A stretch of 64,000 bases of DNA, from NCBI RefSeq assembly GCF_016801985.1, contig NZ_JAEVLS010000002.1, positions 682,001 through 746,000 of the forward strand, read 5' to 3'. Position 1 is the first letter of the stretch. Each line of letters starts with the position of its first letter. Under the pieces are notes generated by a model that had not been told where the DNA came from, did no database searches, and was given only the letters and a program-made list of their open reading frames with translations. Of this stretch, positions 55,874-62,964 are shown piece by piece. Position numbers and translations under genes: made by a program. Source of the stretch: Steroidobacter gossypii. Its GTDB lineage: Bacteria; Pseudomonadota; Gammaproteobacteria; Steroidobacterales; Steroidobacteraceae.

Positions 55874-55922
55874 TGCTCAGATGTGGTGCGTGTGACGTTC
55901 GCAACGCACTTAAAGTGGTGCG
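55874..55922. promoter_or_regulatory. Two NtrC-like enhancer sites
   Basis: Site 1 at 55874-55890 (TGCTCAGATGTGGTGCG) has the 17-bp NtrC architecture TGCACC-N5-GGTGCA with a weak left half. Site 2 at 55905-55922 (CGCACT, 6 bp, GGTGCG) is a better inverted repeat with one extra spacer base. The GTGGTGCG elements are 32 bp apart, about 85 and 118 bp upstream of the sigma-54 start, the spacing expected for enhancer binding. Confidence 0.5.
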
Positions 55923-55995
55923 AACGCTTGCGCGCCACGCCGTGATGCATCCGGCATGCAAGGGGCCTGACCGCTGGCACAGCCATTGCAAACCC

Positions 55996-56610
55996 ATGGA
56001 TCCGATGCCCGAAGCCACGCCCAAAACCGAGCCCACTCTGCGCGTGTTGATCGTCGATCAAAACGTCATGCGCGCCAGCATTCTCGAGGAAGGGCTGCGC
56101 GAGGCCGGCTATGTGAACGTGACGGTGCTGCGTGAGATGCACAATCTCATGCGACGGATCGTCGACCTCGATCCGGAAGTCATCGTCATCGATCTGGAGA
56201 ATCCGAACCGCGACGTGCTGGAGCAGATGTTCCAGGTGTCGCGCGTGGTGCGGCGGCCCATCGCCATGTTCGTGGATCGCTCCGACACCGACATGATCGT
56301 AGCGGCCGTGGACGCAGGCGTGGGCTCGTACGTCGTCGACGGATTGAAGAAGGAGCGCGTCAAGGCCGTGCTCGATATGGCGATCAGTCGCTTCCATGCC
56401 TTCAACAAACTCCGCGAGGAGCTCGATAACGCACGTCAGGCGCTCGATGAGCGCAAGATCGTCGACCGCGCCAAAGGCATTCTGATGAAGCAGCGAGGCA
56501 TGAGCGAGGAGGCCGCGTATGCACTGCTGCGTAAAGCGGCGATGAATGAAAATCGGCGCTTGAGCGAGGTCGCGCAAAGCGTGGTGACCGCAGCGAGCCT
56601 GTTGAAATGA
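55996..56610 (+). CDS. nasT: Nitrate regulatory antiterminator NasT (ANTAR)
   Basis: A 204-residue response-regulator-like protein: a receiver-fold N-terminus (LRVLIVDQNVMRASILEEGL; DPEVIVIDLENPNRDV, where the phosphorylation position is D in VIVIDLENP) and a C-terminal ANTAR domain (ALDERKIVDRAKGILMKQRGMSEEAAYALLRKAAM). NasT binds hexaloop hairpins to prevent termination and is held inactive by NasS without nitrate. ATG at 55996 (another at 56005). The stop overlaps the nasS start by 4 bases. It is divergent from nirB, whose leader holds such a hairpin. Confidence 0.92.
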   Translation: MDPMPEATPKTEPTLRVLIVDQNVMRASILEEGLREAGYVNVTVLREMHNLMRRIVDLDPEVIVIDLENPNRDVLEQMFQVSRVVRRPIAMFVDRSDTDMIVAAVDAGVGSYVVDGLKKERVKAVLDMAISRFHAFNKLREELDNARQALDERKIVDRAKGILMKQRGMSEEAAYALLRKAAMNENRRLSEVAQSVVTAASLLK

Positions 56611-57800
56611 ATCCTGCTCAAATCGAACACGGAACCACGGTCGTCGGATTCATTCCGCTGCTGGATTGCGCGCCGCTCGCCGTTGCGGTCGAGAAAGGGT
56701 TCGCCGCCGAACAAGGGCTGGACCTGCGCCTGGTGCGAGAAACTTCGTGGGCCAACATTCGTGATCGCGTAGTCGTCGGTCATTTCGACGCCGCGCACAT
56801 GCTCGGTCCCATGGCAATCGCGTCGACTCTTGGCGTGGGGCACCTCAAGGTGCCGATGGCGGCGCCTCTATCGCTCGGCCTCGGAGGCAGTGGCATCACC
56901 GTTTCTCTGGGCTTGTGGGACTCGATGACGGCGGAGGGTGCGTCGCTGTCCGCCAGTCCGCGTGCGCTGGGCGAAGCTCTTCGCACCGTCGTGCGCGCTC
57001 GGGAGCGAGCGCAACGGCAGCCGCTCACGTTTGCGATGGTCTATCCATTCTCCAGTCACAACTATGAGCTGCGTTACTGGCTTGCAGCGTGCGGGATTGA
57101 TCCGGACCGCGATGTGCGCGTCATCGTGATTCCGCCGCCGTTGCTGGTCGATGCCATGCGCGAAGGGCAGATCGATGGGTTCTGCGTCGGCGAGCCTTGG
57201 AACAGTCTCGCGGTGGCGGCCGGCGTCGGATGCATTGCTTTGCCGACCACAGCGATCTGGCGCTTGAGTCCGGAGAAGGTGCTGGGTTGCCGTCTGGAGT
57301 GGACGCAGCGCCATCCGGACCGACTGCGAGCGCTGGTGCGCGCCGTTTATAAGTCTGCGTTGTGGTGCGAGCAGCCGGAGAATCATGCGGAGCTGTCGCG
57401 CTTGCTGGCGGAGCCGCGTTTCGTGGGCGCGCCGGCAGAGATCCTGTTGCGCGGGCTGTCGAATCGCCTTTGCATGCAGCCAGGAGGCGAGCCGCAGCGA
57501 CTTGAGAATTTCTATTTGCCCGCCTCGCGGCTGGCCACGTTTCCGTGGGTAAGTCACGCGCTCTGGTTCTACTCGCAGATGGTTCGCTGGGGACAGGTTG
57601 GCTTCGATCCGGAGCATGTCCCGCAAGTGCGCGCGACTTATCGACCCGACCTGTATCGGCTGGCCCTGTCGGGCACGGCCGCGGAGATTCCCACGTCAGA
57701 CACCAAGATCGAAGGCGAGTCGCAGGGGCGCGACGGATTCTTCGACGGCGCGCGCTTCGATCCCAACGATCTGTCCACCTATGCACGTAAGGCGGAATGA
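56607..57800 (+). CDS. nasS: Nitrate sensor NasS (NrtA/CmpA-like)
   Basis: A 397-residue protein of the nitrate/bicarbonate-binding family without a signal peptide, which distinguishes cytoplasmic NasS from the transport protein NrtA. Family segments: VVGFIPLLDCAPLAVAVEKGFAAEQGLDLRLVRE, FDAAHMLGPMAIASTLG, YPFSSHNYELRYWLAACGIDP and DGFCVGEPWN. It binds nitrate and then releases NasT. ATG at 56607 overlaps the nasT stop (ATGA), so the two-component pair is translationally coupled. Confidence 0.92.
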   Translation: MNPAQIEHGTTVVGFIPLLDCAPLAVAVEKGFAAEQGLDLRLVRETSWANIRDRVVVGHFDAAHMLGPMAIASTLGVGHLKVPMAAPLSLGLGGSGITVSLGLWDSMTAEGASLSASPRALGEALRTVVRARERAQRQPLTFAMVYPFSSHNYELRYWLAACGIDPDRDVRVIVIPPPLLVDAMREGQIDGFCVGEPWNSLAVAAGVGCIALPTTAIWRLSPEKVLGCRLEWTQRHPDRLRALVRAVYKSALWCEQPENHAELSRLLAEPRFVGAPAEILLRGLSNRLCMQPGGEPQRLENFYLPASRLATFPWVSHALWFYSQMVRWGQVGFDPEHVPQVRATYRPDLYRLALSGTAAEIPTSDTKIEGESQGRDGFFDGARFDPNDLSTYARKAE

Positions 57801-59062
57801 TGAGCTCATGGAGTCGGCGAGCAGGTTTGGGCGCACTCGTGGCGGCGATGTCTGCTCCTTGTGCGGCTGCGGATTTCGGAGTGCTGGGGAACGCGCTGTC
57901 GCAGTCGAAGCCCATCATCGATGCGCGGGTCCGCTATGAGAGCGTCGATCAAACCCCGCTGGTTGAAGATGCTCACGTTGAGACGTTACGCATGCGCCTC
58001 GGCTTCGAAACCGGCAGGGCCTGGAGCACGAGCTTTCTGGCCGAGGGCGAACTCATCACGGAGCTGGAGGGCAGGTATCGCGACGACACGGCGCGAGCAC
58101 GCAATCTGAACTACCCGGTCATTCCGGATCCCGAGACCGAGGAGATCAATCGGCTGCAACTGGTGAACACCGCGCTGCCGGGCACGACCGTGACCCTGGG
58201 GCGGCAGCGTATCGTGCTCGACGATCATCGCTTCGTGGGCAACGTGGGCTGGCGTCAGAACGAGCAAACATTCGACGCCGTGCGCATCGTCAACAAGTCG
58301 CTGCCGGCGCTCACTCTGGATGCCACGTATCTGAATCAGGTGAACCGCATCTTCGGTCGCGACTCGCCGCAGGGGCGATATCACGGTGACGGCGTGCTTG
58401 CCAATGCGGCGTATCGATCTGCAATCGGCAAACTCAGCGCCTTCGGTTATTGGCTCGACTTCGATGCGGCTGCTGGCTTGCAAGGCGGTTTGGATCCGAC
58501 ACGCGTGTCGAATGAAACGTTCGGCGTGCGCCTGACCGGTGAGCAACCATTGAGCAAGTTCCAGGTCGCGTACGCCGCGACCGTGGCACGACAAAGCGAC
58601 CATGGCAGCAATCCCTTCGCCTTCGATCTCGATTACTACTCGGTGGAGCTGACCGGCACGTACCGGCAGTACAGCATGACCTTGGGACAGGAAGTCATGG
58701 AAGGGGATGGCACGGTGGGGTTCGCAACGCCCCTGGCCACCATGCATCGCTTTCACGGCTGGGCGGACAAGTTCTTGACCACGCCGGCCAATGGCATCGA
58801 CGACCGCTATGTGAGCCTCGGCTATCTCGCCAAAGGCGTCGCCGCGCTCGATGATCTGTCCGCGACCGTCGTGTACCGCGACTTCGAGTCCGAGCGCCTG
58901 GCGCAGGATCTGGGCGATGAGATCGATCTGCAACTGCAGGCGAGATATCGTCGCTTCGTCGGATTACTCAAGGTCGCGCTCTACGAATCCCATGAAGGCC
59001 GCACGCCTGCGGCTTATCAGGACACCACCAAGTTCTGGGCGCAGCTGGATTACGTGTGGTGA
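57797..59062 (+). CDS. Alginate-export-family outer-membrane porin, linked to nitrate genes
   Basis: A 421-residue protein with an N-terminal signal (GLGALVAAMSAPCAAA at about residues 10-25) and amphipathic beta-strands typical of an outer-membrane barrel, including RYESVDQTPLVEDAHVETLRMRLGFET, and ending in aromatic LDYVW. The pattern fits the alginate-export (AlgE-like) porin family. It is translationally coupled to nasS (ATGA), so nitrate or nitrite uptake is a likely role. No inner-membrane nitrate transporter is in the cluster. ATG at 57797 or 57800. Confidence 0.8.
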   Translation: MMSSWSRRAGLGALVAAMSAPCAAADFGVLGNALSQSKPIIDARVRYESVDQTPLVEDAHVETLRMRLGFETGRAWSTSFLAEGELITELEGRYRDDTARARNLNYPVIPDPETEEINRLQLVNTALPGTTVTLGRQRIVLDDHRFVGNVGWRQNEQTFDAVRIVNKSLPALTLDATYLNQVNRIFGRDSPQGRYHGDGVLANAAYRSAIGKLSAFGYWLDFDAAAGLQGGLDPTRVSNETFGVRLTGEQPLSKFQVAYAATVARQSDHGSNPFAFDLDYYSVELTGTYRQYSMTLGQEVMEGDGTVGFATPLATMHRFHGWADKFLTTPANGIDDRYVSLGYLAKGVAALDDLSATVVYRDFESERLAQDLGDEIDLQLQARYRRFVGLLKVALYESHEGRTPAAYQDTTKFWAQLDYVW

Positions 59063-60314: not shown

Positions 60315-60413
60315 ATTCCGCTGCCCGGACGGGCGTAGTCACCGCCGTTCGCCGCGGCGTATCATGGGCGTCAGAACAAAGAGTGCGCGCGCACGGGATG
60401 CGCAGGAGCATCC

Positions 60414-62564
60414 ATGAATAAACTCACCGTGCGAGGCGTCGACGGCTCCCACCGCGATTACGGACTGGCCGCCGGCAGCATCGTCATCGGGCGCGACCCC
60501 AACAGCGACATCCATCTGAAAGACCCGCAGGTCAGCTGGAAACATGCCGTGCTGGTCAATGACGCCAGCGGCTGCATCGTCGAAGACCTCGGCAGCTCCA
60601 ACGGCACGTTCGTGGGCAACTCGCGCATCCAGCGACACCTGGTGCATCCCGGTGAGCGCATCAAGATCGGCCCCTACGAACTGATCGTGCAGGCGGTGCA
60701 GGTGCCTTCGCCGAACTCGGCCAGCGAGCGCACCTTGTTCGCTGCCGCCGATCATTATGTACAACATCACCAGCAAGAGCGGGGTGCGAGCGTACAGAGC
60801 GCCGTCAGCCGGGCGGGGGTCGCCGTCAAGGAAGCAACCCAGGTGCGTGACTGGCGAGCCCTCTGGAAACGGTTGCTGCCCATCTTCAATGCCAGCGAGC
60901 TGTACGGAACGATCGAGTGGCGCACCGAGCTCATGGCGGGACTCACCGTGGCGGCGTTGTTGGTCCCGCAAGGCATCGCATATGCATTGCTGGCGGGCTT
61001 GCCGCCGGTGATGGGGTTATATGCATCCATTCTGCCCATGATCGTTTACGCGCTCACGGGCAGTTGCCGGCACGCCTCGGTCGGACCGGTGACGGTCGAC
61101 TCGCTCATGCTGGTGCTGGGGTTGAGCACGATGGCGATCGCGGGGACCGCCGCTTACATCGCGCTCGCCACGTTGCTGACGATGGTCATCGGCGTTACGC
61201 AGCTCGCGATGGGCGCGCTGCGCCTGGGCTTTCTGGTCAACTTTCTGTCTTATCCGGTGCTCGCTGGCTTTACGTCCGCCATCGCAGTCATCACCGCGTT
61301 GGGCCAATTGCATCACTTCCTGGGCGTGCCCCAGCAACAGTTTCCTTATTTGTACGAAGCGATGCTGGATGTGATGTCGCGCGCGGGCGAGGCCAATGTC
61401 GCGACGCTTGCCATCGGCATCAGCTGCATTCTGCTGTTGCTGGGCTTCAGCAAGCTGTCGCCGAAGGCGCCCGGGCCCTTGGCCATGGTGGCCGTATGCA
61501 CGGCCTTGTCGTTTCTGTTCGGTTTGGAACGACATGGCGTGGACGTGCTTGGCGAGGTGCCGCGAGGACTGCCGCAGCTGAGCGCGCCCGATCTCAACTG
61601 GAGCCAGATCGAGCAATTGCTGCCGGTGGCGTTGACCATGGCGCTGGTCGGCTTCGCCCAAACTGTGTCGGTGGGCAAGTCGCTTGGCAACAAACACGGT
61701 TATGACATCGACGCCAATCGCGAGTTGACCGCTCTCGGGCTGGCCAATGTGAGCTCGAGCGTATCGCAGGGTTACGCCGTCTCGGGGAGCCTCGGCCGCT
61801 CCGCACTGAATGCCTCGGCGGGCGCGAAGACGCCGATCGCAGCGATCGTCACCGCACTTTGCATTCTGCTGACGTTGCTGTTTCTGGCACCCGTGTTTCG
61901 TTATTTGCCCGACGTGACGCTCGCCGCCATCCTGGTCGTGTCCTCGCTGCGCCTGATCGACACGCGCGAGATCCGTTATCTGTTCAACGTGAAGATCACC
62001 GAGGGCCTGCTGCTGGTGTTCACGTTCCTTGCCACGCTGATCTTCGGCGTGATGACCGGGTTGTTCATGGGGGTGGTCGCGTCGATCCTGCTGTTCATCA
62101 CGCTGAATACCCGGCCTTACACCGCCATTCTGGGCCGCCTGCCCAACACCAACATCTTCCGCAATGTCGAGCATTTCCCGGAAGGCGAGACCATGCCGGG
62201 CCTGGTGATCCTGCGCATCGACGCGTCCTTGTACTTCGCCAACGTGGTGTTCCTGAAAGAGCGCATCCACGAGGTCTGTCGGACCTACCCGGGCGAGTTG
62301 AAGGCGCTGATTCTCGACGCCAGCGCAGTGAACGACCTGGATTCCTCGGCGGACACGGCCTTGCATCAGCTGTCCGATGAGTTCAAGAAGAAGGGCATCA
62401 CATTCTATATCGCCGGCGTGAAAGCGCCGGTGCGTCGGGTCATGCAGCGCTCGGGGCTGTACACCGCGCTCGGCGGCGATCATTTCTTTTTCACCATCGA
62501 CGCGGCGGTTCGGCGCTTTCAGGAAAAGACCGGTGGGCTTGCGCGGCAGCGCCAGTCTTCTTGA
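60414..62564 (+). CDS. FHA domain-SulP anion transporter-STAS fusion
   Basis: A 716-residue protein. Residues about 1-95 form an FHA domain with the phosphothreonine-binding residues R27 (IGRDPNSDI), S41-H44 (VSWKH) and N63 (GSSNGTF). After a linker of about 50 residues, residues 165-585 are a SulP-type transporter with about 12 helices (LTVAALLVPQGIAYALLAGLPP, GPVTVDSLMLVLG). Residues 596-706 are a STAS domain (ILRIDASLYFANVVFLKERI, NDLDSSADTAL). SulP proteins carry sulfate, bicarbonate or other anions. An FHA fusion is unusual and suggests control by Thr phosphorylation. ATG at 60414 with AGGAG upstream. Confidence 0.9.
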   Translation: MNKLTVRGVDGSHRDYGLAAGSIVIGRDPNSDIHLKDPQVSWKHAVLVNDASGCIVEDLGSSNGTFVGNSRIQRHLVHPGERIKIGPYELIVQAVQVPSPNSASERTLFAAADHYVQHHQQERGASVQSAVSRAGVAVKEATQVRDWRALWKRLLPIFNASELYGTIEWRTELMAGLTVAALLVPQGIAYALLAGLPPVMGLYASILPMIVYALTGSCRHASVGPVTVDSLMLVLGLSTMAIAGTAAYIALATLLTMVIGVTQLAMGALRLGFLVNFLSYPVLAGFTSAIAVITALGQLHHFLGVPQQQFPYLYEAMLDVMSRAGEANVATLAIGISCILLLLGFSKLSPKAPGPLAMVAVCTALSFLFGLERHGVDVLGEVPRGLPQLSAPDLNWSQIEQLLPVALTMALVGFAQTVSVGKSLGNKHGYDIDANRELTALGLANVSSSVSQGYAVSGSLGRSALNASAGAKTPIAAIVTALCILLTLLFLAPVFRYLPDVTLAAILVVSSLRLIDTREIRYLFNVKITEGLLLVFTFLATLIFGVMTGLFMGVVASILLFITLNTRPYTAILGRLPNTNIFRNVEHFPEGETMPGLVILRIDASLYFANVVFLKERIHEVCRTYPGELKALILDASAVNDLDSSADTALHQLSDEFKKKGITFYIAGVKAPVRRVMQRSGLYTALGGDHFFFTIDAAVRRFQEKTGGLARQRQSS

Positions 62565-62574
62565 GAATGGCGAG

Positions 62575-62964
62575 GTGAAGCGACCAATCGAAATGAATTG
62601 CCCGTGCGGCTCGGCTCGGGAGTATGAGCGCTGCTGTGGACGTTGGCATCGCGGCGGGCTCGCGCCGGACGCTGAATCGTTGATGCGATCCCGGTACTCG
62701 GCGTTCGTGCTCGCTAACGAGGAATATCTGCTCGCCACCTGGCATCCGACGAAGCGGCCCAACTCCATTACCTTCGACACAAATCAGAAGTGGCTTGGAC
62801 TGAAAATCGTCGAAGCCACTTCGACAGGGGCGACCACCGCGGAAGTGGAGTTCATCGCCCGTTACCGCATCGGCGGCGGCTCCGCTGCGCGGTTGCACGA
62901 GCGAAGCCGGTTCGTGAAGGAAGCGGACCGCTGGTGGTACGTCGACGGAGATATTCGCGCGTAG
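62575..62964 (+). CDS. YchJ-family SEC-C motif protein
   Basis: A 129-residue protein. The N-terminal SEC-C type zinc motif is CPCGSAREYERCCG, followed by the YchJ core (SLMRSRYSAFVLANEEYLLATWH) and the C-terminal HERSRFVKEADRWWYVDGD. It is a NTF2-like fold protein of unknown function. GTG at 62575 (11 bp after sulP) is used; the ATG at 62593 places the zinc motif at residue 3 and may be the real start. Confidence 0.85.
   Translation: MKRPIEMNCPCGSAREYERCCGRWHRGGLAPDAESLMRSRYSAFVLANEEYLLATWHPTKRPNSITFDTNQKWLGLKIVEATSTGATTAEVEFIARYRIGGGSAARLHERSRFVKEADRWWYVDGDIRA

Follow-up and report, generated by a model that had tools for sequence, protein, structure and literature searches.

The locus raises the question whether a phosphothreonine reader can govern the anion transporter with which it shares one polypeptide chain. 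The window, which is the whole stretch of 64,000 nucleotides of Steroidobacter gossypii DNA analysed, holds a gene (FHA-SulP) that joins an FHA domain to a SulP/SLC26 membrane domain and a STAS domain. This domain order suggests that phosphorylation directly controls anion transport. FHA-SulP would be an SLC26/SulP anion transporter with a phosphothreonine reader at its cytoplasmic N-terminus. T107, which lies in an invariant SExT motif behind the FHA domain, would be the target of one of the numerous Hanks-type kinases that the cell encodes. The FHA domain would then bind pT107 either within its own chain or across the SLC26 dimer, and this binding would shift the cytoplasmic cap and so alter transport. 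The working mode would be like that of OdhI and GarA, where the FHA domain binds its own phosphorylated tail. We infer the phosphorylation, the binding, the effect on transport and the identity of the anion alike, and a probability of about 0.4 is given to this self-switch as a whole. The features concerned are as follows.

60404..60408, + strand: AGGAG, probable ribosome-binding site, read directly, 5 bases before the ATG at 60414
60414..62564, + strand: FHA-SulP-STAS gene, 716 aa (ORF, Pfam and NCBIfam; orthologues found)
60480..60671, + strand: FHA domain, residues 23-86 (PF00498, E 4e-18)
60687..60863, + strand: variable linker, residues 92-150 (residues 95-146 with pLDDT <50 in the AlphaFold2 model)
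60723..60734, + strand: SExT motif (SERT here), residues 104-107, with T107 as proposed phosphothreonine site
60924..62018, + strand: SulP/SLC26 membrane domain, residues 171-535 (Pfam match)
62187..62498, + strand: STAS domain, residues 592-695 (Pfam), with D643-S644-S645 invariant in 9/9 fusions
62593..62964, + strand: YchJ-like gene, 28 bases downstream (YchJ_M-like, E 3e-27; SEC-C)

The domain assignment was analysed with curated models. At 66.1 bits the FHA match clears its threshold of 20.7, which was also passed by all four other scanned fusions. The Sulfate_transp family (residues 171-535, E 5.7e-104) and STAS (residues 592-695, E 5.8e-18) were matched as well, and the NCBIfam model TIGR00815 (sulP; cut-off 380.45) spanned residues 156-698 at 452.7 bits, while FHA-SulP scored under the cut-offs of both the DauA and the BicA curated models. 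The protein has the SLC26 fold with a STAS domain, and its AlphaFold2 model matched solved SLC26 transporters in a fold comparison that covered mainly residues 138-711, so that the FHA half is barely tested by it. The sequence-only reading had described a single frame with FHA, about 12 membrane helices and STAS; the frame, the coordinates and the domain order stand, and the helix count falls, since solved SLC26 transporters have 14 membrane segments. The fusion lies in one open frame in five named genome records and three further genomes, and with eight other genomes holding it in this form an assembly artefact is unlikely. The fusion gene is also overlapped by an antisense open frame of 587 codons (window 61017-62780, - strand), probably a side effect of coding at high G+C.

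The distribution of the fusion was examined in genome draws made within Pseudomonadota, the window's own phylum. The carrier counts are lower bounds, being based on at most the best 5, 3, 3 and 2 candidates per genome in the family, order, class and phylum draws at strict E-values. In the family draw 93 of 200 genomes matched at E <=1e-40; in six of them the match extends into the FHA part, and these six, which include the own genome, belong to this genus. The genus draw (14 genomes) returned the same six carriers. The order draw (5/296 matching at E <=1e-90) and the phylum draw (75/398 at E <=1e-130) reached the FHA part in the own genome only, and the class draw (86/369 at E <=1e-100) reached it in the own genome, G674, G415 and G568. 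Within the order of G415 the fusion is present in two of five genomes, and within that of G674 in one of three. Across the genomes numbered G000 to G1149 the draws thus give at least nine carriers. A scan of 84,980 species, made with two FHA peptides that are not common to the three distant members, gave seven loci, five with the fusion and two matching the FHA part only. The named carriers are Steroidobacter agaridevorans SA29-B, Peristeroidobacter agariperforans KA5-B and P. soli JW-3; a Steroidobacter MAG and a gammaproteobacterial MAG are further ones. Among plasmids, 133 records matched at E <=1e-60, and the FHA part was reached in none of the best 20 (earliest query residue 131).

A quick maximum likelihood tree (SulP-STAS columns, midpoint root, no bootstrap) was built from 76 SulP frames at best-matching loci, reduced to 56 by removing duplicates and pieces shorter than 430 residues. 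All nine fusions fell on one side of a branch with an SH-aLRT value of 99. As they form one group, the FHA domain was most simply gained once and retained in each group member found. FHA-SulP is a real, rare fusion, most likely of single origin, and the nine carriers in the four draws bear out its rarity; other phyla may hold independent fusions of this kind.

The binding residues of the FHA domain were then compared. The FHA signature consists of G-R, S-x-x-H and N-G, and it is present in FHA-SulP as G26, R27, S41, H44, N63 and G64, all invariant in the nine fusions; R27, S41 and N63 had already been read as intact from the sequence. Compared with the three distant members, the FHA domain shows 35, 30 and 25% identity and the SulP part 44-50%. 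The spacing from R to S is 14, the same as between Arg81 and Ser95 of GarA, which contact pThr22 (PMC6151718). By sequence, the solved chains nearest to the FHA half are TB39.8 (FhaA), Rv1747 and OdhI, with GarA close behind. The domain looks functional and, judged by its kept residues, probably binds phosphothreonine. Some FHA domains bind without phosphate. Control of transport through phosphothreonine, as earlier proposed for this gene, is plausible and is strengthened by the retention of the binding residues in three divergent lineages; the accompanying claim that the ligand sits on a partner is weakened, as the SExT motif on the protein itself may serve.

The evidence for a site on the same protein comes from the linker. 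It shares only 16-22% of its residues with the distant members, yet S104, E105, T107 and W147 do not vary among the nine fusions. SExT is the sole invariant linker motif besides W147, beginning at residue 104 or 105 in 9/9, about 18 residues C-terminal to the FHA match. Of 10000 within-row shuffles of linker residues 92-146 in five representatives, none produced as many as three invariant columns; the shuffle ignores kinship, two of the five representatives belong to one genus, and the support for SExT comes from three lineages only. None of the 13 other FHA proteins of the own genome (15 FHA rows) has the pattern SE.T, and SExT as a general FHA companion was rejected on this ground. Because the motif is invariant in a divergent linker and absent from the other FHA proteins, a site on FHA-SulP itself is favoured. 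T107 is tentatively proposed as the main FHA ligand; the motif may also serve otherwise, for example as a docking peptide. No docked FHA arrangement was seen in the AlphaFold2 model. Two loosely similar stretches are leads only. EFEKTMVI stands behind the FHA domain of the L113 protein and resembles SERTL/SERTM of the fusions, in a region (G000:C26:815000-821600) where CHASE2-Ser/Thr kinase, PP2C and FHA genes stand side by side; the double-FHA protein of G415 contains EDKTV and EGRTM.

The alternative that survives best takes the FHA ligand to be a phosphothreonine on a partner protein and SExT a mere linker feature, and it is considered somewhat unlikely. Partners would be plentiful, given 16 FHA matches and 27 Pkinase rows in the own genome, and the FHA half resembles those of FhaA, Rv1747 and OdhI, with FHA I of Rv1747 binding Rv2623 in a manner where phosphothreonine 237 matters (PMC5549992). 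This reading, however, leaves the motif kept in 9/9 fusions unexplained, and the scanned neighbours differ among the window, L117 and L118, and YchJ alone stays, in four of five named same-genus loci.

A Ser/Thr kinase check had been advised for the genome, and the 27 Pkinase rows answer it. The suggestion that the transporter is controlled by its own kinase did not hold, as about 330 kb separate the gene from the nearest of these rows on the window's contig; a kinase next door was accordingly rejected for the own genome. No kinase family match was present among 15 scanned neighbours of the fusion in G415, and for the named loci the flank comparison covered the window genes only. PF00069 occurs in 22/22 genomes tested, that is in the nine carriers and in 13/13 non-carriers, so kinases do not discriminate carriers.

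The YchJ-like gene is found downstream of the fusion in L064-L067 but not in L068, a short contig; it is possibly co-transcribed with FHA-SulP. The promoter scan gave 1 promoter-like site against 0.7 expected, and the terminator scan 5 terminator-like sites against 2.3 expected; neither result is relied on here. The genes for an ANTAR regulator and an NMT1-like protein, which we take to be of NasT/NasS type, run directly into an alginate-export-like porin gene (window 55900-59062; 24.9 bits, just below the cut-off of 25.2); in L064, L065 and L067 about 4.4-4.5 kb lie between the two. As operon partners of the fusion the NasT/NasS-type genes (55900-57800) were rejected, because opposite-strand ArsC and S30AE genes stand between. 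In G674 the fusion gene is followed by genes for DUF3375, DUF4194 and an SbcC-like ATPase (L118:2918-8611, + strand), presumably a condensin/Wadjet-like set in which DUF4194 is MksE-like.

The fusion gene of G415 faces, in convergent orientation, a double-FHA gene, a PP2C phosphatase gene and a multihaem cytochrome run. An FHA domain is fused to a multihaem c-type cytochrome at L106:1431-3197 (+ strand; region G000:C22:920500-937000) and, in G415, at L119:8142-9875 (- strand), with FHA scores of 23.1 and 27.0 bits against the cut-off of 20.7. The cluster includes an HbpS-like protein, an LVIVD-repeat multihaem protein and a double-FHA protein, and in G415 also a PP2C and a cyclic-nucleotide-binding flavin/ferredoxin oxidoreductase. 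The own genome has a homologous cluster about 177 kb downstream of the fusion gene. The FHA-cytochrome gene is present in 6/9 carriers against 1/13 non-carriers (Fisher p 0.0066), five of these six carriers being near relatives. The cluster was rejected as an obligate partner in view of these relatives, the three carriers without it and the distance in this genome. No paper on FHA fused to a multiheme cytochrome was found in the open-licence literature searched. A wider version of the self-switch, in which the FHA domain of each chain grips pT107 of its partner chain and so sets the SLC26 cap as part of an FHA/PP2C/kinase network that would also control the FHA-multihaem-cytochrome electron-transfer system near the fusion in one lineage, is regarded as improbable.

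The transporter half was analysed by mapping the anion site of AtSULTR4;1 by hand on the alignment, where Q112, Y116 and R393 correspond to Q186, Y190 and R462 of FHA-SulP. In the fusions these positions are kept in 9/9, in eight as Tyr plus one Phe, and in 9/9, respectively; in a comparison set of 22 SulPs without FHA, hand-picked from the retrieved loci, they are kept in 18/22, 18/22 plus two Phe, and 20/22. The E347 place is acidic (E/D) in 20/22 comparison SulPs, and the Ser392 place is S/T in 18/22. The acidic residue expected of an H+-coupled, SULTR-like sulfate symporter is absent from the six genus members, all of which have Gln, and the three distant fusions have E, G and E; the Ser392 place is Gly/Ala in the same six and Ser in the three distant ones. 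In AtSULTR4;1, E347 is needed for proton-driven transport and Ser392 contacts sulfate (PMC8298490). Because of these two replacements we infer an altered coupling for the genus carrier, which may be an exchanger or an uncoupled path rather than a proton-sulfate symporter. In the STAS domain, D643-S644-S645 is kept throughout the fusions, and S644 occurs in 4/22 comparison SulPs. In anti-sigma antagonists the serine of a DSS motif is a phosphosite, and by this analogy it is a second possible link to phosphorylation.

The replacements at the E347 and Ser392 places, set against the comparison SulPs, also favour a second alternative, in which FHA-SulP is a signalling transceptor and not a bulk transporter and reports anion binding via FHA and STAS to the kinase network; the E. 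coli SulP protein DauA acts in a signalling pathway (PMC5703999). This has a low probability, as the fusions retain the counterparts of Q112, Y116 (once as Phe) and R393, Glu persists at the E347 place in two of the three distant ones and Ser at the Ser392 place in all three, and AtSULTR4;1 E347Q retains about 40% activity (PMC8298490).

Selection on the FHA domain was estimated from five within-genus pairs, drawn from five of the six genus members (all but L039). The dN/dS of the FHA domain was 0.19, 0.28, 0.08, 0.17 and 0.10, and that of SulP in the same pairs 0.13, 0.11, 0.07, 0.08 and 0.06. The values of 0.08-0.28 indicate that the FHA domain is under purifying selection; the ratio is above that of SulP in 5/5 pairs because the FHA dS is lower. 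That the FHA domain is a passenger without control role, retained for folding or stability, is quite unlikely: the higher ratio and the 25-35% identity in distant members, under the 44-50% of SulP, speak for it, but the six signature residues are invariant at such divergence, the domain is present in all nine group members found, and its dN is below that of SulP in 4/5 pairs.

Taken together, the T107 self-switch is favoured by the fusion itself, the single group, the intact FHA signature, purifying selection, the SExT motif, the kinases in all nine carriers and the double-FHA and PP2C genes beside the fusion in G415. Against it stand the lack of a near kinase, the equal presence of kinases in non-carriers and the model without a docked arrangement. 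The mechanism is put forward as a good hypothesis and no more; that the state of the FHA domain alters transport or membrane assembly is slightly favoured. If the switch is true, FHA-SulP would to our knowledge be the first SLC26 transporter with its own phosphothreonine reader, and it would tie the movement of anions in Gammaproteobacteria to Hanks-type kinases. G415 and G568, with only 3 kinase matches each at E <=1e-20, present a small testable kinase set. A natural SLC26 protein with a reader of known ligand chemistry also gives a handle on cytoplasmic gating of this fold. The role of STAS in SLC26 proteins was called unresolved in 2021 (PMC8298490).

No description of an FHA-SulP fusion was found in the open-licence literature searched, in accordance with the sequence-only reading, which knew of no characterised one; the FHA domain and the sulfate transporter named in PMC6151718 belong to different proteins. 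The further suggestion of a new signalling-transport link is retained for the fusion and not for FHA-controlled transport as such, for which Rv1747 of Mycobacterium tuberculosis is a precedent. The known SulP/SLC26 proteins (TIGR00815; AtSULTR4;1, prestin, DauA, BicA, SLC26Dg) are without the N-terminal FHA domain and linker, and the Gln and Gly/Ala at the E347 and Ser392 places further set the Steroidobacter-genus fusions apart from other SulPs. Other SulP fusions carry carbonic anhydrase or a cyclic-nucleotide-binding domain; these too add a cytoplasmic domain, but no phosphothreonine reader. Rv1747 likewise has FHA joined to a transporter, and its FHA structures 6cah and 6ccd are among the nearest to FHA-SulP by sequence; it is a mycobacterial ABC protein with two FHA domains, one binding a phosphothreonine protein (PMC5549992), whereas FHA-SulP has one FHA domain and no ABC match among its five listed Pfam families. 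FHA-bearing transporters linked to phosphothreonine are thus already known. In OdhI and GarA the own FHA domain binds the phosphorylated N-terminus (PMC2784874), and they share with FHA-SulP the R and S that hold phosphothreonine and a threonine motif adjoining the FHA domain. They are, however, small soluble proteins with the motif N-terminal to FHA, whereas FHA-SulP is a membrane protein with its candidate phosphosite C-terminal to it; by analogy it may still work like the OdhI/GarA switch.
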